A stretch of 64,000 nucleotides of DNA, taken from Corynebacterium pacaense. GTDB taxonomy: Bacteria; Actinomycetota; Actinomycetes; Mycobacteriales; Mycobacteriaceae. Below are positions 48,991 to 64,000 of the stretch, piece after piece. How positions within the stretch are numbered: position 1 is the first letter of the stretch; each line of letters starts with the position of its first letter. The notes below the pieces were generated by a model. That model had not been told where the DNA came from. It made no database searches and was given only the letters and a program-made list of their open reading frames with translations. The stretch is taken from the NCBI RefSeq assembly GCF_900169525.1, contig NZ_LT821239.1, positions 434,001 to 498,000 of the forward strand, in the 5' to 3' direction. Made by a program: the position numbers and the translations under genes.

Positions 48991-49541
48991 CCGGCCCGCT
49001 GATCCTGCCCTTCAACGGTCGGCTGCCGCGCATCCATGAGTCCGCCTGGATAGCCCCGACCGCCACCATCATCGGCGATGTGGAGATCGGCCCCGACGCC
49101 TCGGTGTTCTATGGAAGTGTCCTGCGCGGCGATGTCAACGCCATCCGAATCGGTGCCCGCACCAACATCCAGGACAACTGCGTCATCCATGTCGATGGTG
49201 ACGCGCCCTGCACGCTCGGTGAGGATGTCACCGTCGGGCATCTCGCGCTGGTCCACGGCTCCACGGTGGGACCGGGGACGCTGGTCGGGATGAAGGTGGC
49301 ATTGCTCTCGCACAGCGTCATCGGCCCCGGATCCCTCATCGCGGCCGGCGCCATCGTGCTCGAGGGTCAGGAGATCCCGCCTAAGTCACTGGCCGCAGGT
49401 GTTCCCGCCAAGGTCAAAAGAACACTTGACGACGCCCAGTCCGCATCCTTCATCCCACACGCCGGACGCTATGTGGCCACGTCGAAGGCCCAGGCCGCGC
49501 CCGGGCAGGCGTTGTCGCTGGAGAGTGTCCGTTACTCCTAG
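48987..49541 (+). CDS. Gamma-carbonic-anhydrase-like hexapeptide-repeat protein
   Basis: A 184-residue left-handed beta-helix protein built from hexapeptide repeats (SAWIAPTATIIGDVEIGPDASVFYGSVLRGDVNAIRIG...). Metal-ligand histidines are visible in NCVIHVD, VGHLALVHG and ALLSHS, as in YrdA/PaaY/CamH. It may be a carbonic anhydrase or a thioesterase. GTG 48987 overlaps the HAD stop; SD GGAAGGA comes from the motif at 48968. Its stop shares CTAG with convergent cysR. Confidence 0.85.
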   Translation: MTGPLILPFNGRLPRIHESAWIAPTATIIGDVEIGPDASVFYGSVLRGDVNAIRIGARTNIQDNCVIHVDGDAPCTLGEDVTVGHLALVHGSTVGPGTLVGMKVALLSHSVIGPGSLIAAGAIVLEGQEIPPKSLAAGVPAKVKRTLDDAQSASFIPHAGRYVATSKAQAAPGQALSLESVRYS

Positions 49542-50683
49542 AGCGCCAATGACAACGGTTCGTTGAGCAGCCGGTCGAGCGCCACGGACCGGGCCGCCGC
49601 CCGCGTGTTCTCGCGGTGGGTGGGGATCAGGCGCAGTTCGACATCGTGGGTGTAGTTCTCCTTCAGTTCGGCGGCGAAGACCTGGCGGCCGTCGGGGTCC
49701 TCGGAGAATGCCGAGCCGGAGAGCACCACGGTGCCGGGGTTGACCGACTGTGCCGCGGTCGCGGCGGACCGTGCGAGGAGGCGGGCGCGGTCGTCGAGAA
49801 GCTCCCTGATCCTGGGATTGTCCGCGGCGAGTTTGACGAGCTCGTCCAGGGAGTCGGAGAAGATTCCCTGGTCGGAGACGCGGTTGAGGAATCCCTGGGT
49901 GCTCAGTGCGTCCTCGGGTGCCATGCCGCCGGTGTCCAGGGTGGAGTCGCCGCTGGCCTCCAGGGCGCCGATGACATGGACGCCCTCGTCATCGCTGTAG
50001 GCGGCGCCGACGGAGTCGTCGGCGTAGAAGGTCAGCGTGACCGGGGCGGTGTCGCCCGGGCGGGTGAGGGGTGCGGCCTGCAGCTCGGAGGCCGCGATGG
50101 CGGGGATCGCCGAGGCGATGGTCGCGGGGACGCTGAACTGGTATTTCAGTCTGCTCGCGATATCCACCGCGTCCCAGCCGAGGTTGTGCGCGGTGACCAC
50201 TCCGTCGGCGGTCACGCGGCCCGAGGTGGCCACTCCGATCCCCACCAGCGGCAGCGTGATGCCCGTGGTCAGCCGGTTGACGCCGGCGATCAGGTGCTCG
50301 ATGAAGGTGTCGGGGTCCAGGTCTATGGAGGATTTCTCCAGCACGGATTCGCGCAGGGTCCGTCCCTTGGTGTCAAAGAGCGCGATATAGGAGGACCGTG
50401 TGCCGATGGCCACTCCGGCGTGGATCCAGGGGCTCGGCGCCAGTTCCAGCGGGATGTTCGGCCGTCCGGGGCCCGATGACTGCATGAGGTCCGGGCGTTC
50501 ACGGACCAGCTCGGCCTTCATCAGTGCCGTCACGGCGCGGGTGACCGTGGGTTGTGACAGACCGGTCGCCTCGACCAGCTCGTTGCGTATGAGCTGCTGG
50601 CCGAGGCGGATATGGTGCATGCACTTCGCCGCCGGGGTGCTCGGGCGGGCGAAGGTTGCGGTGGAGTTGGCCGGATTGGGCAT
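49538..50683 (-). CDS. cysR: ROK-family transcriptional regulator, CysR-like
   Basis: A 381-residue regulator: N-terminal winged helix-turn-helix (LIRNELVEATGLSQPTVTRAVTALMKAELVRE) and a ROK sugar-kinase-like domain without an obvious kinase active site. Two McbR-type boxes lie just upstream. In C. glutamicum the ROK protein CysR activates assimilatory sulfate reduction and is itself repressed by McbR, and its gene lies near panBC; operator and position together support the name. ATG 50683 was chosen; an upstream in-frame start would cross the operators. Sulfate-reduction genes are not in the window. Confidence 0.75.
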   Translation of the reverse strand: MPNPANSTATFARPSTPAAKCMHHIRLGQQLIRNELVEATGLSQPTVTRAVTALMKAELVRERPDLMQSSGPGRPNIPLELAPSPWIHAGVAIGTRSSYIALFDTKGRTLRESVLEKSSIDLDPDTFIEHLIAGVNRLTTGITLPLVGIGVATSGRVTADGVVTAHNLGWDAVDIASRLKYQFSVPATIASAIPAIAASELQAAPLTRPGDTAPVTLTFYADDSVGAAYSDDEGVHVIGALEASGDSTLDTGGMAPEDALSTQGFLNRVSDQGIFSDSLDELVKLAADNPRIRELLDDRARLLARSAATAAQSVNPGTVVLSGSAFSEDPDGRQVFAAELKENYTHDVELRLIPTHRENTRAAARSVALDRLLNEPLSLAL

Positions 50684-50704
50684 GAATGAAATTATAGCGT
50701 CTTG

Positions 50705-50742
50705 TAGACAACACTGTCTAATCTGGTAGACTGCATAGTCTA
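50705..50742. promoter_or_regulatory. Two McbR boxes upstream of cysR
   Basis: TAGACAACACTGTCTA (50705-50720) and TAGACTGCATAGTCTA (50727-50742) both match TAGAC-N6-GTCTA, the known site of McbR, the corynebacterial repressor of sulfur amino acid metabolism. Their centres are 22 bases apart, two helical turns. Confidence 0.85.
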
Positions 50743-50750
50743 TAAAGGTG

Positions 50751-52049
50751 TCAGGGTTCACCGGATCCAACAGTCGGGGCGGGCCTGCGGTAGCGCCAGA
50801 ATTTCGGAACCGCCACCATGCACACCAGGGTCAGAACCACCACCGCGACACCGCCGGCAAGGATCGTCCATCCCGCCCCCCAGGGCTCGGCGAGCCAGCC
50901 GTGGAGCACATCGGCCAGCCGGGGCCCGCCGACGACCACGATGATCCAGACGCCCTGGATGCGGCCCTGGACATGCTCCGCGGCCGACTGCTGCAGAATC
51001 GCGTTGCGCACCGCCGAGGAGAACATGTCCGCCATGCCGCCGATGATCATCATGAGGATGAACATCCACGCCCACACCGTCACGGCGCCCGGACTGAGCA
51101 GCACGGCCACGCCACCCAGCGCCACGGCGACACCCCATGCGATGATGCACCAGTACACAGCCACCCCCTGCCGACGGACCCTGGAGACCCACCCGGAGAA
51201 CAGCCCGCCGAGTACGGCGCCCAGTGCCATGGAGGAGTAGAGGAAGGCCAGCATTGTCGCCCCGGCGTCGCCACCTCCGAAGTCATGATCGGCAATCTCG
51301 GGGTAGAGCGCCCGTGGCATGCCGAAGACCATGGCGATCAGATCCAGAAGCATCACCATCATCAGAACGGGCTGCCCCCCGAGGTAGCGCAGCCCGTCCA
51401 CCACGCTGGCGAAACCGGCCTTCACCACCTCGCCGAGGGGTTTCATCGAGGGCAGCGCCCACACCGCCCACAGTGTGGGCACGATGGAGATGACATCCAG
51501 GAAGTACAGCCAGCCGAAACCGATCAGGGGAATCAGCGCGCCGGCGATCAACGGGCCGACGATGGCGCCGGTCTGCATGAGCATCATGTTCAATGAGGTC
51601 GCCGAGGCCAGTTGGTCGATGGGCAGAAGCCGCCGCAGCACCGATGTCCGCGTGGGCTGGTTGACCGCGAAGAAGGCCTGCTGCAGCGCGAAGTTGAGCA
51701 GCAGCAGCCAGACGTTCTGATTCTGCATGAGGGTGAGAACCCAGAAACCCGCCGTGGTGGCGATCATCCCGATGGTGGTGCAGATCAGCACGATCCGCTT
51801 GTCAAAGGCATCGGCGATCGAGCCTCCATAGAGGCCGAAGATCACCAGGGGCACCAGCCCGAAGACACCGGTCAGCCCCACATAGGCACTGGATCCTGTC
51901 ATCTGGTAGATCTGCACGGGGACGGCGACCACGGTCAGTTGGGCGCCGATGACGGTGGCGACATTGCCCAGCCACAGGTTTCGGAAGGCCGGGACCCGGA
52001 ACGGGCGGGTGTCGGCGAAGATATCTCTCAGGCTCACGCGCATAGACAT
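50751..52049 (-). CDS. MFS transporter, EntS/MFS_3-type exporter
   Basis: A 432-residue major facilitator with 12 segments, FGLYGGSIADAFDKRIVL in the 2-3 loop and NQPTRTSVLRRLLP after segment 4, as in the enterobactin-exporter-like MFS_3 group. Start at 52049 (MSMRVSLRDIF). It lies upstream of cysR on the same strand but the McbR boxes separate them, so it is probably a separate unit. Its substrate is unknown; export of a siderophore or toxic compound is typical. Confidence 0.82.
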   Translation of the reverse strand: MSMRVSLRDIFADTRPFRVPAFRNLWLGNVATVIGAQLTVVAVPVQIYQMTGSSAYVGLTGVFGLVPLVIFGLYGGSIADAFDKRIVLICTTIGMIATTAGFWVLTLMQNQNVWLLLLNFALQQAFFAVNQPTRTSVLRRLLPIDQLASATSLNMMLMQTGAIVGPLIAGALIPLIGFGWLYFLDVISIVPTLWAVWALPSMKPLGEVVKAGFASVVDGLRYLGGQPVLMMVMLLDLIAMVFGMPRALYPEIADHDFGGGDAGATMLAFLYSSMALGAVLGGLFSGWVSRVRRQGVAVYWCIIAWGVAVALGGVAVLLSPGAVTVWAWMFILMMIIGGMADMFSSAVRNAILQQSAAEHVQGRIQGVWIIVVVGGPRLADVLHGWLAEPWGAGWTILAGGVAVVVLTLVCMVAVPKFWRYRRPAPTVGSGEP

Positions 52050-52243
52050 TAGCCCAGCACCGTGGATCCGCAGTGGATCCTCCGCCATTTGGTCGCGCTC
52101 CCGGGCCCGGGACTTCCGTGCCGGATGAAACCCTGTCGCCTGCACGCGGTGCCGTGATAGCGCCCCGCACCGCATAACCCGGGATGGACCCCCTCCGGGG
52201 TTGGTTGTGCCGACGCCGTGCCCCGAGCCTATCCTGATTGATT

Positions 52244-52993
52244 GTGATTACCATTGCACTGGTCCTTCTCGCCTCCGTCTTTGTCGGCGCCATTCTCCAA
52301 CGCATCACCGGACTCGGCGTCGGTCTGGTCGCGGGTCCCGTGCTCACCGCGCTGCTCGGCCCCCTCGCCGGTGTGACCATGGTCAACGGACTCTCGGTGA
52401 TCAACGCCGTGAACAACGCCTGGTCCGTGCGCAGGAGAACGGACTGGAAACGCTTCCGCATCCTCGCGGGCGCCCTGGTCATCGGCTCGCTGCCCGCGGT
52501 GTGGGTGGTCCACACCCTGAACGGACCGTGGCTGCTGATCGCCGTCGGCCTGCTGGTTCTCCTGGCACTGGGGATCTCGCTTTTCCCGACGGAGAAATTC
52601 CGAATCGACGAGCACGCGAGGGTGCCGATGATCCTCTTCGGTATCGCCGGCGGCTTCATGTCCACCATCGCGGGCATCGCCGGCCCCGCGCTGACCGTCT
52701 ACGCCCGTCTGGCCAGGTGGGACTACCGCGACTTCGTGGCCACCCTGCATCCAATCCTGGTCGTGGCCAACTCCGTGTCCTTCCTGCTCAAGGTCTTCCT
52801 CATCGGTGGCCTGGACTTCGGTGGCACCCCGGCCTGGCTGTGGGTCGCCGCGGTGGCGATGATCTTCGTCGGTGCCTGGTTCGGCGAGCGCATCAACGCG
52901 CGCATTTCCACGCCGATGGCCAGACGGATCGCCACGCTGCTGGCGGCCGCGGGCGCGGCCGTGGTGCTCGTCCGCGGCGTCACGGGGTTTTAA
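52244..52993 (+). CDS. TauE/SafE-family (TSUP) transporter
   Basis: A 249-residue membrane protein with about eight segments and the two TSUP repeats (VFVGAILQRITGLGVGLVAGPVLTALLGP; GGFMSTIAGIAGPALTVYARL). The family moves sulfite, sulfonates or other organosulfur anions. GTG 52244 was chosen because TATCCT (52230) ends eight bases before it, suiting a leaderless message; a TTG at 52238 would add two residues. Its TAA stop is the centre of an 18-bp palindrome. Confidence 0.82.
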   Translation: MITIALVLLASVFVGAILQRITGLGVGLVAGPVLTALLGPLAGVTMVNGLSVINAVNNAWSVRRRTDWKRFRILAGALVIGSLPAVWVVHTLNGPWLLIAVGLLVLLALGISLFPTEKFRIDEHARVPMILFGIAGGFMSTIAGIAGPALTVYARLARWDYRDFVATLHPILVVANSVSFLLKVFLIGGLDFGGTPAWLWVAAVAMIFVGAWFGERINARISTPMARRIATLLAAAGAAVVLVRGVTGF

Positions 52994-57637: not shown

Positions 57638-58420
57638 ATGGGTGTTGAACTGGCTGCCGGCGGTTGGGCGGTCCTGATCGCCGGAGCCGCCATCGCCGGG
57701 TGGATCGACGCGGTCATCGGCGGTGGGGGACTGGTGCTGATCCCGCTGATCATGGCGGTGATTCCGCAGCTGGCACCGGTCACCGCGCTGGCCTCGAACA
57801 AGCTCGCCGCCGTAACGGGCACCGCATCCGCGGCCTTCACGCTGGTCCGCACGGTGCGGCCACCCGCGAAGCTGCTGGCGCTCTACGTGCCGGTGGCGCT
57901 GACCTGTTCCGGACTGGGAGCACTGGTTGCCAGTGCCATAGATAAGGATGTCATGCGGCCACTGATCATCGTCCTCATGCTCCTGGTCGGAGTGTTCGTG
58001 GTGTTCAAACCGGGTTTCGGTACCGGGAGCAGCGCCGAGCTTCCGGCGGGCTGGCGCCGGTGGGCTTCCATAGGCGCGGTGGCGGTGATCGCGGGCTATG
58101 ACGGCATCTTCGGCCCCGGCACCGGCATGTTCCTGATCATGGCCTTCACCGCGGTACTCTCGCAGAACTTCCTCACCTCGGCGGCCATGGCGAAGGTCGT
58201 GAACACCGCAACAAATCTCGGGGCGCTTATTGTATTCATTCTCGGAGGTCACATGTGGTGGACCCTGGGTATCGTGCTAGGTGTCGCAAACGTCCTCGGC
58301 GCGCAGATCGGCGCCAGGACCGTGCTCGGCGGCGGGACCAGGCTCATCAGGTATGCGCTGCTCACACTGGTTGTCGTGATGAGCCTCTACCTCACCTGGC
58401 AACAGCTTGGGTCAGCCTAG
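57638..58420 (+). CDS. TauE/SafE-family (TSUP) transporter, second copy
   Basis: A 260-residue TSUP permease with repeats AAIAGWIDAVIGGGGLVLIPLIMAV and AGYDGIFGPGTGMFLIMAF. YfcA-like group by pattern. ATG 57638 has AAAGG upstream. It is distinct from the TSUP at 52244. The gene is followed directly by a McbR box that overlaps its stop codon, linking the neighbourhood to sulfur control, though the box itself serves the next gene. Confidence 0.82.
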   Translation: MGVELAAGGWAVLIAGAAIAGWIDAVIGGGGLVLIPLIMAVIPQLAPVTALASNKLAAVTGTASAAFTLVRTVRPPAKLLALYVPVALTCSGLGALVASAIDKDVMRPLIIVLMLLVGVFVVFKPGFGTGSSAELPAGWRRWASIGAVAVIAGYDGIFGPGTGMFLIMAFTAVLSQNFLTSAAMAKVVNTATNLGALIVFILGGHMWWTLGIVLGVANVLGAQIGARTVLGGGTRLIRYALLTLVVVMSLYLTWQQLGSA

Positions 58421-58433
58421 ACTTCTTAGTCTA
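58418..58433. promoter_or_regulatory. McbR box before the 126-aa gene
   Basis: TAGACTTCTTAGTCTA fits TAGAC-N6-GTCTA exactly. It begins at the stop codon of the TSUP gene and ends 64 bases before the next start. Third McbR-type site in the window. Confidence 0.82.
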
Positions 58434-58497
58434 TTCAGCAGTGGACTGGCAGCCTCAATCCTGGTTGATCCCAGACAATCTTCCTAGACTGGTCGGC

Positions 58498-58878
58498 ATG
58501 ACGAGTACACAGCTGGACACGCAATCCGGTACGCCGCAGGAAGAGCCCCTCAGTCTTCCGGGACATCCCGAGGTCATCACGGAGAGCACGGTCACGGTGG
58601 TGGTCGAGGACTCAACGAATCCCGACAGCTTCCCCTCGCTCATCGGAGGTGCCGCGGCGACATCCCGCCTCCTCGGTGCAACAAGGCTCCATATCGTCGC
58701 CCCGGCCCAGCATCTGCCCGCGCTGGCCGTCGCGGCCGGCGAAATGGTGGCGGAGCTGCCGGAGGGCTTTCTCTTCTGCGAGGCCGGCTGCGCCGAGCAT
58801 GACCACTCGCACAATCCCTCCGGTGGCGCGATGGTGCTCTCTGCCGAATCGGTGATCCAGATGGGGCGCGCGGCGTAG
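58498..58878 (+). CDS. Hypothetical protein, candidate McbR-regulon member (126 aa)
   Basis: ATG 58498 follows TAGACT by seven bases, so it is probably leaderless. The protein has an acidic, beta-rich N-half (EVITESTVTVVVEDSTNPDSFPSLIGGAAATS), a Rossmann-like middle (RLLGATRLHIVAPAQ) and a Cys/His cluster FCEAGCAEHDHSHN near residue 100 that could bind a metal. I do not recognise the family. The McbR box upstream suggests a role in sulfur metabolism. Confidence 0.6.
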   Translation: MTSTQLDTQSGTPQEEPLSLPGHPEVITESTVTVVVEDSTNPDSFPSLIGGAAATSRLLGATRLHIVAPAQHLPALAVAAGEMVAELPEGFLFCEAGCAEHDHSHNPSGGAMVLSAESVIQMGRAA

Positions 58879-59790: not shown

Positions 59791-61241
59791 GGCGGATTCA
59801 ATCGGTGGTCGCAACACCAGGTTCTTGGGCCGATGGTAGCTGCTCTGTGAATACCTCGGCTGGGGTTTTCCAGTTGAGCACTTTCCTCGGCCGGTTATTT
59901 AACGTGTACGCGACCGCGGCGAGATCGTCAGCACCCCATCTCGACAGGTCGGTGCCCTTGGGGAAGTACTGTCGCAGCAGCCCATTGGTGTTTTCGTTCG
60001 TGGGCCGCTGCCAAGGCGAGTGCGGATCAGCGAAAAACACCGTGGTGCCGGTCTCGAACGCGAATCTGGCATGCTCTGCCAACTCCTTGCCTCGATCCCA
60101 GGTCAACGTCTTACGCAGTTGCTGCGGTAGATCCGTGATTGCTCGGGTGAGCGCATCAGCCATCGCGGTCGCGCCGTGGCCGGCCAAGGCCGGCCCGTTT
60201 TTCACTCGCGGCTGCTGCCCGTAGCCTGCAAGTCGTGGCAGGTGCACCAGCAGCACAGAGCGGCTCTTGCGCTCGACGAGCGTGCCGATCGCGGACTGGT
60301 GTGTGCCGATGATCAGATCCCCCTCCCAATGTCCAGGCACCGCGCGGTCCGCCGCTTCGGCGGGACGCTCGGAGATGACGACATCGTCTGTGACATGGCC
60401 TTGTGGCTTGTTCCGTGAACGCCGTCGTGGTTTCCGCAGCGCTCGACCAGTGCGTAGACACGTGACGAGCTCGCGCTTGAGTGCGCCGCGCCCCTGGATG
60501 AACAGTGACTGGTAAATCGCTTCGTGGCTGATCCGCATGGCACCATCATCAGGGAAATCAACTTTCAGCCGGTGCGAGATTTGTTCCGGGCTCCAACCCG
60601 TGACCCATTGACGGTCCTCTCGGTGTGGCTTGTTTCGTCCCTTCCAACGCGGTGCATCGGGCCCCTGAGCTACCGTCCCGTCCGGCAGACTGACGCTGCC
60701 CTCAAGGCGCTGTTGCACATAGTCACGCAGCGCGGTGTTGGTCACCAGTTTCGCTTGTTTGGGCCGCTTGGCCGCAGACTCGGCCTTCCACTGCGCAACG
60801 GAAGCCCGGTACTCCACTTCCCCGGCACGGGTCGCGGCGTTTCGCCGCAGTTCCCGGGAGACTGTCCCGGGATCGCGTCCGAGTCGTCGGGCGATCTCAC
60901 GGACGCCGACATTTTGAACGTGTAACAGCGCGATCTCTTCACGCTCAGCAAAGCAGAGATAACGGCCAGCAGCTGGAGCAAGATCTAGTGGAGGCATACC
61001 TCCAGCATGGCGAAACCACCGCGTACCCACCGGTGCTGACACACCAACAGCAACCGCGGCATCCTCGCTCGTAAGCCCATCAGCGATCTGTACCCAGAAT
61101 GCCCGCTCGACCTCACGTCGCGGGGGCGGGCGCCCCGGAGAGCGCATCGGTTGTCGCACCGCTCGATCCGCATCCGCCTGACGACGTAGCATCACACACC
61201 TCCATGTCATCGAGGTGTTGCGACGACCAGTTGAATCCGCC
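59791..61241 (-). mobile_element. IS30-family element inserted in the IS3 orfB
   Basis: Imperfect inverted repeats begin GGCGGATTCAA at both ends (27 bases with three mismatches, ending GCAACACC). The triplet GAC is duplicated at each side (59788-59790, 61242-61244). Removing the element and one GAC restores HSDHGSVYALEHYRR in the IS3 orfB. Length 1451 bp. Confidence 0.88.
59798..61192 (-). CDS. IS30-family transposase
   Basis: A 464-residue transposase: helix-turn-helix (EEIALLHVQNVGVREIARRLGRDPGTVSRELRRNA), then the DDE domain with PGHWEGDLIIG (first D), LTWDRGKELAEH (second D) and QRPTNENTNGLLRQYFPKGTDL (E). ATG 61192 (MLRRQADADRAV). Open throughout, so this copy may be active. Confidence 0.88.
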   Translation of the reverse strand: MLRRQADADRAVRQPMRSPGRPPPRREVERAFWVQIADGLTSEDAAVAVGVSAPVGTRWFRHAGGMPPLDLAPAAGRYLCFAEREEIALLHVQNVGVREIARRLGRDPGTVSRELRRNAATRAGEVEYRASVAQWKAESAAKRPKQAKLVTNTALRDYVQQRLEGSVSLPDGTVAQGPDAPRWKGRNKPHREDRQWVTGWSPEQISHRLKVDFPDDGAMRISHEAIYQSLFIQGRGALKRELVTCLRTGRALRKPRRRSRNKPQGHVTDDVVISERPAEAADRAVPGHWEGDLIIGTHQSAIGTLVERKSRSVLLVHLPRLAGYGQQPRVKNGPALAGHGATAMADALTRAITDLPQQLRKTLTWDRGKELAEHARFAFETGTTVFFADPHSPWQRPTNENTNGLLRQYFPKGTDLSRWGADDLAAVAYTLNNRPRKVLNWKTPAEVFTEQLPSAQEPGVATTD

Positions 61242-61831
61242 GACGCTACCGTGGTCGGAATGGAAAATCGCCACGTCAAGGCTGCCTCGGATCCCGTGGG
61301 CCATCGTGAGGGCTTCTTCGACCAACTCCGTGTGCATGTGCTCGGCGATTGCGAATCCGGTCAACTGCCGCGAATAGTAGTCAATGACCGTGGCCAGGTA
61401 CATATTCGACACCTCCGCGATCGGCAGATACGTGATGTCGTTAACGTAGACCCTGTTTGGTTTCACCAAAGTGAACCGGCGCCGCAGCAGGTCGGAGAAC
61501 CTCGGAGTCCGTTTCGCAGGGACAGTGGTCGTCACCCGGCGTTTTTTGGTGTAGCCGAACAGCCTCATCTGGCGCATCAGCCTCGCGGTGCGCTTGTGAT
61601 TGAGACGGCCGTCGTTGGTTGGATTGGAGTTGATCGCCGCAGGCACGCGTTTCGCCCCCTAACAGCCGTTCTCGGCCGTGAACACGGCCCTGATCCTCGC
61701 TGTCAGCACCGCGTCGTCGATAAGGCGTCGCCGGCGCCGGGGAGCAGCAGATTTTCCATGAGTTGTACGAGGACCGGTTGATCTTCAAGACCTTACATAA
61801 CCGCTTGACCTCGTAGAGGCCTCGGTGGTCA

Positions 61832-62194
61832 TCAATGAACTGAAAGCGGTTCACCCGTTCGTCTGCTTGCCGCGAAAAACTTGGCCGCCGTGCGCAGGAT
61901 CTCTCGTTCTTCCCGGAGCGTGGCGTTCTCGCGTTCGAGCATGCGGATGCGCTCGGCATCAAAGAGCCCTTCAGCGGGCGTGCGTTGGCTGTTGGCCGCG
62001 GCGGTGGGGCTGGCGACTTTCTCGCCGTTGGCGTTGGTTGTGGTGCCGGTGCCGAAGGCGTCGAGCCAGGTGCGCAGGGAGTTGCGGTTGACCCCGAGAT
62101 CGGAGGCGATAGCGTTGATCGTGGCTGCGGGGTTTGACTCGGAGAATGAGACTGCGTCACGCTTGAACTGCTCGGTGTCGGTCTTGCGTGGCAT
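61832..62194 (-). CDS. IS3-family transposase OrfA
   Basis: A 120-residue OrfA starting MPRKTDTEQFKRDAVSF, with a helix-turn-helix (INAIASDLGVNRNSLRTWLDAFG) and a coiled-coil tail (AERIRMLERENATLREEREILRTAAKFF). It belongs to the broken IS3 element and overlaps the start of its orfB. Confidence 0.82.
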   Translation of the reverse strand: MPRKTDTEQFKRDAVSFSESNPAATINAIASDLGVNRNSLRTWLDAFGTGTTTNANGEKVASPTAAANSQRTPAEGLFDAERIRMLERENATLREEREILRTAAKFFAASRRTGEPLSVH

Positions 62195-62245
62195 GGTGGA
62201 AAGGTACCTCACTTCTCCAATGTGATGCTGGTTTCAGCGTGTCCA

Positions 62246-62600
62246 CCACCGAGGGGTCAAGTCCGATGTAGTAGGCACGGGCTTCTGCAGTCTGCACCGG
62301 CAACAACATGTGGAAGTGACTCCGGCTCAATTGTTGCGAGAGCGTTGCGACAATCTGCGCGTCGGCGAAGAGCTGAGCGAACTGGAGCATGTGGTACAGG
62401 CTCGCCCTGCTGAAGCTACGACCGTATTTCTTGGCAAATTGTCGCGACAGCGCCGCCACAATCTCCTGATCGTAACCAGCGCGTTGTTTCTTGAGTACCT
62501 TGACGTCGATCATCCGCCCGATGTACCAGTTCCGCAGCGTCAAAGTGGTGTTCACCTGTGAGGCCATGAGTGCCTGTCCCTGCTCGATCAGGGTCGACAC
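62246..62600 (-). pseudogene. DUF1016 (YhcG-type) nuclease, N-terminal fragment
   Basis: The frame starts near GTG 62600 and reads STLIEQGQALMASQVNTTLTLRNWYIGRMIDV ... YGRSFSRASLYHMLQFAQLF ... SHFHMLLPVQTAEARAYYIG, the conserved N-terminal domain of DUF1016 proteins. It is cut at about 62245 by the IS3 end, so the C-terminal PD-(D/E)XK nuclease domain is lost. DUF1016 genes are common in restriction and defence islands. Confidence 0.78.
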
Positions 62601-62711
62601 CTGTTCAAGGAGCTCACCATCATAGGCACTGACAGCTCCGCGATAGCCCGAAACGGAGTCAGGTCAGCGCCAGAGTGACATGCGGGTGAGCTGTCACTCG
62701 GGGCTTGATCT

Positions 62712-64000
62712 GGCTCTTCACGATTTAGAGTGCGTTGATCTTTCCCTGCAGCTGTCCGGAGTGGATCAGGCACCGCAATATGTAGTGGTTGATGTTCCTG
62801 AACCCGAGTGCGATCCCGCGCAGGTGCTCCAGCCGACCATTGATCGCTTCGACCGGGCCGTTGGACGCGCCGATGTCGAAATAGGCGAGCACGTCTTCGC
62901 GTCGGCGCCACAGGGTCCGCCCCAGTTGGGCGAGTTCCTCCAGCCCTGCGGGTAGCCCCTTGCGGATGCTGTTGATCACCCTGCTCATCAGCTTCTTGCC
63001 CTCCGACTTCTTCGGATGCCCGTAGGCTGCGATCAGATCCTGGTAGAACAACCACGTCACTTCCAGGGCGACGTAGTCATCGTCGGTGGCCCACAACATG
63101 TCGAGTCGTTGTTTCTGCCGGTCGGTGAGATAGTTCGTCCTGGTCAACAGGGTCCTCCGGTACTTGTACAACGGATCATCCTTGCGCCCACGCCGCCCGG
63201 TCGTCTCACGTTGGAGGCGTTGCCGGCACCCGGTGAGCTTGTCGGCAGCCAGATGCACCACATGGAACGGGTCCATCACCTTGCGGGCATCCGGGAGCAC
63301 CTGGTCCACGGCTGAGGCATAGCCGGTGAACCCGTCCATCGTCACCACCTGCACGTTTTCCCGGAAATCAGGGTCGCGTTCCTGCAGCCACGTGCGCAGC
63401 ACCTGCGCGCTACGACCGGGACGGATGTCCAGCAGGCGGGCATGCCCACGGCCATCCACCAGCGGGGTGAGGTCGACAAGGATGGTCACCAGATTCGACG
63501 GCTCAGTCGGTCGTCGGGTGTGCTTCCAGACGTGCTCATCGACGCCGAGGATGCGCACGCCGTCCAGATGTCCGGGGTCGTCGTAGACGAGGCTCCGGCA
63601 GGCATCGAGTGCGACCTGGTTGACCAGTTCCCAGCCCACGCCGAGTGCTTTGGCGGTGGCGGACACGCTCATCCGGTCGATCGCCAGGCGCTGGAGAATC
63701 TAGCGGGTGACCCGGTGGGTGATCTTGGCCCCGTCATCAGCGCAGTTGAGTGAAGCCTGGAAAATCTTCCTGGCACAGGACAGATTGCTGCAGGTGAAAC
63801 GGGGGACGCGGACGTGCAGGCGGGTGGGGAACCCGACGACCGGCAGGTCGACGAGCCGGCGGGGAGTGTGGTCGCGCAGCTTCCCGGACTGTCCGCAGTC
63901 CGGGCAGAGGTTGTTCACGGTCACGGGGGTGGCGTCGATGATGGTGATGTTTCCGGCGTCGGCGGCACCGGTGATCGTCAGGCCGATTTCCGCGGTGCGG
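62712..64000 (-). mobile_element. ISL3-family element (IS31831-like), partial
   Basis: The left end reads GGCTCTTCACGATTTAGAG from 62712, close to the terminal repeat remembered for IS31831 of C. glutamicum. The element runs off the right window edge. Confidence 0.75.
62725..64000 (-). pseudogene. ISL3-family transposase with an in-frame amber codon (partial)
   Basis: One frame runs from the window edge to 62725. Its N-terminal part has the zinc-finger pattern CPDCGQSGKLRDH ... CSNLSCARK; the catalytic part has GVDEHVWK, MDPFHVVHLA and GPVEAINGRLEHLRG. TAG at 63700-63702 replaces the tryptophan expected in HRVTR-W-ILQRLAIDRMSVS, so no full transposase is made unless the codon is read through. 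The start lies outside the window. Confidence 0.82.

Follow-up and report, generated by a model that had tools for sequence, protein, structure and literature searches.

A small gene behind a TauE/SafE-family permease in Corynebacterium pacaense as a candidate for McbR control

In Corynebacterium pacaense a gene for an uncharacterised small protein, here called HYP, lies directly behind a gene for a TauE/SafE-family permease, and an exact McbR-type operator sits at the junction of the two. In C. glutamicum, McbR is described as the global repressor of sulfur metabolism in the passages available of PMC2580772. A McbR box before HYP, together with the position of HYP behind a sulfite-type permease, suggests that HYP may be a sulfur-controlled permease helper. 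The genome sequence makes HYP a fair candidate for control by McbR in this species, and HYP is a probable new member of the McbR regulon with an uncharacterised product. We propose, at a little short of even confidence, that HYP is a small soluble accessory of TauE with its own leaderless promoter, to which McbR control has here been added. The window, that is the whole stretch of 64,000 nucleotides that was analysed, contains the following features at this locus:

57638-58420, plus strand: TauE2, a TauE/SafE (sulfite exporter) family permease of 260 aa (Pfam PF01925, E=2e-36)
58418-58433, no strand assigned: McbR-type operator TAGACTTCTTAGTCTA, 16 bp, exact match with 0 mismatches
58462-58467, plus strand: inferred -35 element TGGTTG, weak, read from the sequence 17 bp upstream of the -10
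58485-58490, plus strand: -10 element TAGACT (TANNNT) of a predicted leaderless promoter, last T at -8 from the ATG
58498-58878, plus strand: HYP, a small alpha/beta protein of 126 aa from an uncharacterised family, ATG at 58498 to TAG at 58878

The distribution of the family indicates that HYP is a real gene, since a profile search finds members in 42 of 242 Corynebacterium genomes (47 matches). A search with the single sequence recovers HYP in 19 of 151 genomes of the genus, its own included; among 397 genomes from the order, in each of which no more than 11 candidates were scored, only its own genome matched (1/397). A contig scan places HYP loci in two named organisms, Corynebacterium gallinarum and an uncultured Corynebacterium MAG (2 loci). 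A diverged second class (L162, L164, L165, L168 and L048) is located elsewhere, with no TauE2 alongside. In three of these loci (L162, L165 and L048) the next gene encodes a small, putative lipoprotein that contains TAxxVTVSGxSxQV. A named family for HYP was sought and rejected: neither Pfam, NCBIfam nor a PDB sequence profile search gave a significant match. Pfam, at E up to 10, returned weak and scattered matches only (Fn_bind at E=0.2 as the best for the window protein, 0.073 as the best over 17 members), and NCBIfam and the PDB profile search returned no match at all.

Gene order suggests that cg0177, near cg0175 (a putative secreted protein), is the probable counterpart of HYP in C. glutamicum, cg0176 and cg0177 being the probable orthologs of the two genes at this junction. 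The passages of PMC6892785 covered report that cg0175 and cg0177 are up in a (p)ppGpp-null strain; the table that lists them also includes cysY, cysN, cysH, cysX and cysI. A listing of cg0177 at -1.21 in the excerpted sigB study (PMC1779776) suggests that other regulators act. The passages of the literature covered do not name cg0177 as a McbR target. Since the genome that we take to be C. glutamicum (G178) has no box at the junction, McbR control would not be expected there from the sequence. No study of the HYP gene was found among the literature matches listed for the topics McbR, TauE with a small protein, cg0174-cg0177 and Corynebacterium NuoF.

The association of HYP with the permease holds in one direction. 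In 38 of the 46 HYP loci examined (from the 47 family matches, G008 not being among the 46) the gene immediately before HYP, on the same strand, is TauE2; the automatic adjacency check gave 36/46, to which the window and G117 were added, as their profile match ran into an upstream read-through frame. TauE/SafE is a transporter family named after sulfite export. A DUF885 gene, an AbrB-type membrane protein gene, TauE and HYP occur together in 11 of 18 larger loci. The proposal that TauE2 requires HYP was dropped: 185 of the 242 Corynebacterium genomes have TauE2 (E up to 1e-50) against 42 of 242 for HYP, and in each of 20 hand-picked HYP-negative genomes with TauE2 on the plus strand nothing HYP-like (best E 1.1) lies within about 1.2 kb behind TauE2. 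Because TauE2 often occurs without HYP, these counts make HYP an optional companion of the permease. In two genomes, G088 (L046) and G092 (L047), HYP and the AbrB-type gene are neighbours and TauE2 is missing from between them, an arrangement that loss of the permease with retention of HYP could produce. To the right of HYP, Pfam identifies three transposase genes on the minus strand, IS30-like (59798-61279), integrase-core type (61113-61646) and ISL3-type (62725-63672); HYP borders this insertion-rich stretch (window 59798-63672).

The upstream regions of the family point to a promoter dedicated to HYP. After start codons had been set from the family alignment, one locus excluded on account of its start (L174) and identical upstream regions removed, 38 distinct regions remained, and 36 of them carry TANNNT with its last T at -7 to -9 from the ATG; at any other single offset between -1 and -44 the motif is found in at most two. 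A Shine-Dalgarno-like stretch is present in 4 of the 38. The -10 motif of C. glutamicum is given as TAnnnT, with weakly conserved -35 elements and 33% of mRNAs leaderless, in the passages covered of PMC3890552. The conserved TANNNT at -7 to -9 makes it most likely that HYP transcription begins at 58498 itself, as a leaderless mRNA with a start of its own and not that of tauE.

The initial annotation had placed an exact TAGAC-N6-GTCTA site before the gene, and the site is there. We take this pattern to be the operator of McbR, the TetR-type sulfur repressor of C. glutamicum. The TauE2 stop codon (58418-58420) supplies the first three bases of TAGACTTCTTAGTCTA, and 64 bp separate the end of the box from the HYP ATG. 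Counted from the inferred leaderless start the box spans -80 to -65, which leaves 28 bp to the inferred -35 and 51 bp to the conserved -10. McbR sites often lie between the -35 and -10, and cysR and ssuR are leaderless, according to the passages covered of PMC2580772. The same passages describe an exception, cg2810, whose box precedes the predicted -35 by 14 bp. As read from the sequence, the HYP box is not at the usual McbR operator position, and any repression may therefore be modest or act on read-through. The odd position is nevertheless compatible with regulon membership, because exceptions such as cg2810 have been published. A by-eye comparison of the region upstream of HYP with the CysR motif, as given in the excerpts of PMC2580772, found a weak half-site only, on which we base no claim.

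The usual arrangement can be seen in the same window at a cysR-like gene:

49538-50770, minus strand: cysR-like ROK regulator, longest ORF (Pfam ROK, E=6.7e-11)
50705-50742, no strand assigned: two exact McbR boxes upstream of cysR, exact match

Both boxes had been proposed in the initial annotation and were confirmed as exact, starting at 50705 and 50727. A TATAAT follows the nearer box, whose end is 8 nt upstream of it, and stands 7 nt before an ATG; the true start of the cysR-like gene is probably this ATG at 50683, again leaderless. By this reading the nearer box stands beside its -10, as is usual for McbR. Beyond cysR the window encodes a second TauE/SafE-family permease (52238-52993, Pfam E=1.4e-27), which has a close counterpart near panD in five loci of close relatives (L035-L039).

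Exact boxes are enriched in this genome and are placed as operators would be. The window has three (58418 and the two at cysR), and allowing up to two mismatches gives 20 matches against 7.64 expected from shuffles. Over the whole genome (3,030,206 bases in 13 contigs) there are 15 exact boxes, compared with 5 for a control in which the pattern was read backwards and is likewise a palindrome. Because of this ratio about one third of the sites may be chance if position is ignored. Position is of help here: under the same ORF caller all 5 controls overlap a codon-biased ORF, against 3 of the 15 boxes, the three being L006 (a small ORF on the opposite strand) and the two cysR boxes (a long alternative start only). 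From the ORF lists, 14 of the 15 boxes were read as lying on the start side of a gene, L010 being left unassigned.

The genes beside the boxes include several with a likely bearing on sulfur or methionine, graded here by curated cut-offs. One box adjoins metK, which scores above its NCBIfam cut-off. The other assignments fall below cut-off, namely a MetQ/NlpA-like lipoprotein, a methionine-synthase-like protein, a nitrite/sulfite-reductase-like protein opposite a ferredoxin-reductase-like gene, polar amino-acid ABC components whose best matches include cystine transporters, a luciferase-like monooxygenase and a flavin reductase. An amino-acid permease and an ETF beta subunit, the neighbours of two boxes, are not clearly sulfur genes; at L014 (G000:C13:494414) the exact box is 89 bp upstream of the electron-transfer flavoprotein beta-like gene, an unexpected candidate target. 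The genome has 20 TetR_N matches. One of them, L062, may resemble McbR; PDB and NCBIfam do not name it.

Conservation at the TauE2-HYP junction was compared between the window and nine close genomes. The exact box is found in the window only (0/9 relatives). G046 has one mismatch, G157, G044, G145 and G172 have two, and these five degenerate copies sit on the same stop codon; G178, G090, G164 and G117 have no junction site within two mismatches. In the more distant G139 a site with one mismatch lies 26 nt beyond the first base of the stop codon. Six genomes retain the left half-site, and across them the invariant columns number 8 of 10 in the half-sites, 0 of 6 in the spacer and 3 of 16 just downstream. 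This contrast between half-sites and spacer looks operator-like, but the conservation is suggestive only, because the right half GTCTA is changed in all five relatives that retain the left half and the TAG is kept as a stop codon. In 11 relatives the exact boxes exceed the reversed control in six, equal it in two and fall below it in three; since the control is not exceeded in every genome, box counts alone prove little in relatives.

These data bear on the strongest alternative, that the palindrome is a chance or decaying sequence and HYP is made from its leaderless promoter under other control, with no meaningful regulation by McbR. The weakening or loss of the box in every close relative speaks for it, as do the atypical distance to the promoter, the five or so palindromes of this kind expected from composition, the lack of excess in several relatives and the three bases that double as a stop codon. 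It accounts poorly for the ORF overlaps, which the controls all show and the boxes mostly do not, and for half-site columns that outlast the spacer. We regard it as a possibility to be taken seriously without being the probable one. The same evidence qualifies the suggestion of the initial annotation that the gene belongs to the sulfur regulon. The exact box, the other boxes at sulfur and methionine genes and the place of HYP behind a permease of the sulfite-exporter family stand in its favour, and membership in C. pacaense is plausible. Taken as a wider claim, sulfur-regulon membership draws support from this context and is weakened by poor conservation and the position of the box far upstream of the conserved promoter.

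Structure prediction offers a different view of what HYP may be. In the AlphaFold2 model of HYP (mean pLDDT 81.8) the first 30 or so residues are of low confidence and the rest runs beta-alpha-beta-alpha-beta-beta-alpha, and the model of a second family member has the same order of elements (mean pLDDT 73.9). All 50 rows shown by the structural aligner for HYP are NuoF-type chains by entry title and chain (complex I, FdsB, HydB and Nfn; Z 8.6-9.6 over 97-108 residues at 11-15% identity), to be read against a usual best Z of 7 to 8 for unmatched models and a procedure that re-ranks Foldseek's own list. The second member likewise gives 50 of 50 rows shown of NuoF type, RnfC among them (Z 8.1-9.2, 95-107 residues, 11-17% identity). 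Foldseek itself reports E values of about 0.01 or worse, in a list that also has a designed binder, glycosyltransferases and others.

The fold comparison raises the alternative that HYP derives by reduction from a NuoF/RnfC-like 51K flavin domain, the cofactor loop having been lost on the way. Apart from the rows shown for both models (Z 8.1-9.6), what favours descent is a profile alignment of HYP with 20 NuoF-like sequences from other genera of the order, which covers the central helix and next strand (P=0.0037) at a probability of 9%. As a set these 20 sequences outscore 201 ORFs (p=0.011), a decoy set that includes one HYP member; even so, two unrelated ORFs top them all. Against NuoF proper the HYP profile gives P=0.64, and P=0.025 for NuoF-like and NuoF together; 12 NuoF proper sequences fail to beat the decoys (p=0.9997). 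Identity is low, the Foldseek list is mixed with unrelated folds, and the Fe-S part is absent. The Gly-rich flavin/NADH loop (GRGGxGFP-type) is present in the NuoF-like comparison set and absent from the HYP family alignment, and PF01512 (Complex1_51K) finds none of 17 HYP members at E up to 10. Homology to NuoF was rejected as a sequence-based claim, the three P values being too weak to carry it. From the models, the likeness appears to be a fold resemblance, possibly reflecting distant descent, and not membership; true descent is somewhat unlikely. A TusA-like reading, to which the topology is reminiscent by eye, was also set aside: the TusA profile matches none of 17 members, and TusA is not among the fold-comparison rows shown for either model.

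The protein had been annotated as having a Cys/His cluster, and the 126-aa ORF does contain it, as FCEAGCAEHDHSHN at residues 94-105. The description of the protein as Cys/His-rich goes too far, with one small cluster and 6 His and 2 Cys in all. The cluster leads to the alternative that HYP is a metal- or sulfur-binding protein. In relatives it has the form C-x4-C-x-H-x-H, and in ten close members the first Cys and both His are invariant (10/10), with the second Cys in the same column in eight; in the window protein this Cys is shifted by one column. This pattern would suit a binding site, but 15 of 28 more distant members lack Cys altogether and just one has H-x-H, and within the folded region the model is least certain at this loop (block pLDDT 61). 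Because so many distant members are without Cys, the cluster is a feature of the close clade and not of a function common to the family. By itself it gives no function, and we consider metal or sulfur binding unlikely.

The geometry of the junction also allows McbR to be a roadblock: bound at the tauE stop codon it would limit read-through into HYP, or it would act on an alternative promoter with its -10 inside the box (TAGTCT, 58427-58432). The box does begin on that stop codon and end well upstream of the conserved -10, and cg2810, with its box upstream of a mapped -35 and a second hypothetical promoter, provides a precedent in the excerpts of PMC2580772; the alternative promoter, however, has no good -35 by eye, and we judge this reading distinctly improbable.

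We return to HYP as a soluble accessory of TauE2. The protein would act on, or alongside, the TauE/SafE-type permease whose gene precedes its own and with which it travels; a physical link to the permease may be part of this, and any substrate would be conjecture. Its own leaderless promoter would make HYP, and its level would therefore be set independently of the permease. When sulfur amino acids are plentiful, McbR would bind at -80 to -65 and lower HYP transcription, either directly or by blocking read-through from tauE; with McbR off the DNA, HYP would go up alongside the sulfate-reduction genes. Such control is probably modest here, and in relatives without the box HYP would probably be under other control. 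A long shot would combine fold and operator: HYP as the first member to be described of a Corynebacterium family that turned a NuoF/RnfC-type flavin core, loop-less and Fe-S-less, into a dedicated cytosolic regulator of a TauE-type sulfur-anion permease, with one lineage having joined the McbR circuit through an operator on the permease stop codon.

C. glutamicum is an industrial producer of amino acids, and its TauE-type permeases are, to our knowledge, poorly assigned. HYP offers a concrete candidate for a permease regulator, with a predicted leaderless start, a place behind TauE in most of its loci and a putative sulfur operator in one species. The TauE2-HYP junction would also serve as an example of the gain or loss of a regulon site at a gene junction.

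Compared with the McbR regulon of C. glutamicum, this genome shares the exact operator, with boxes at cysR, metK, MetQ-like and sulfite-reductase-like genes. The HYP box differs in lying upstream of the inferred -35, on a stop codon, and in being inexact or absent in nine close relatives. The nearest parallel in the passages covered of PMC2580772 is the cg2810 promoter, which also has its McbR site upstream of the promoter and not inside it; cg2810 differs in encoding a putative symporter, in being a CysR target as well and in the distance to the -35 (14 bp, against 28 bp for HYP).

At the level of the protein, HYP is unlike the Complex1_51K domain (PF01512) of NuoF, HydB and FdsB in having no Gly-rich FMN/NADH loop and no Fe-S part and in going undetected by Pfam, but its predicted beta-alpha-beta-alpha-beta core superposes over 95-108 residues. 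TauE/SafE or YeeE-type permeases can have a small cytosolic partner, the TusA-like YeeD/TsuB. HYP has no Pfam TusA match and a predicted fold nearest to NuoF-type chains, unlike that partner; as with YeeE and YeeD/TsuB, the gene for a small alpha/beta protein here comes after that of a permease from a sulfur-anion family.
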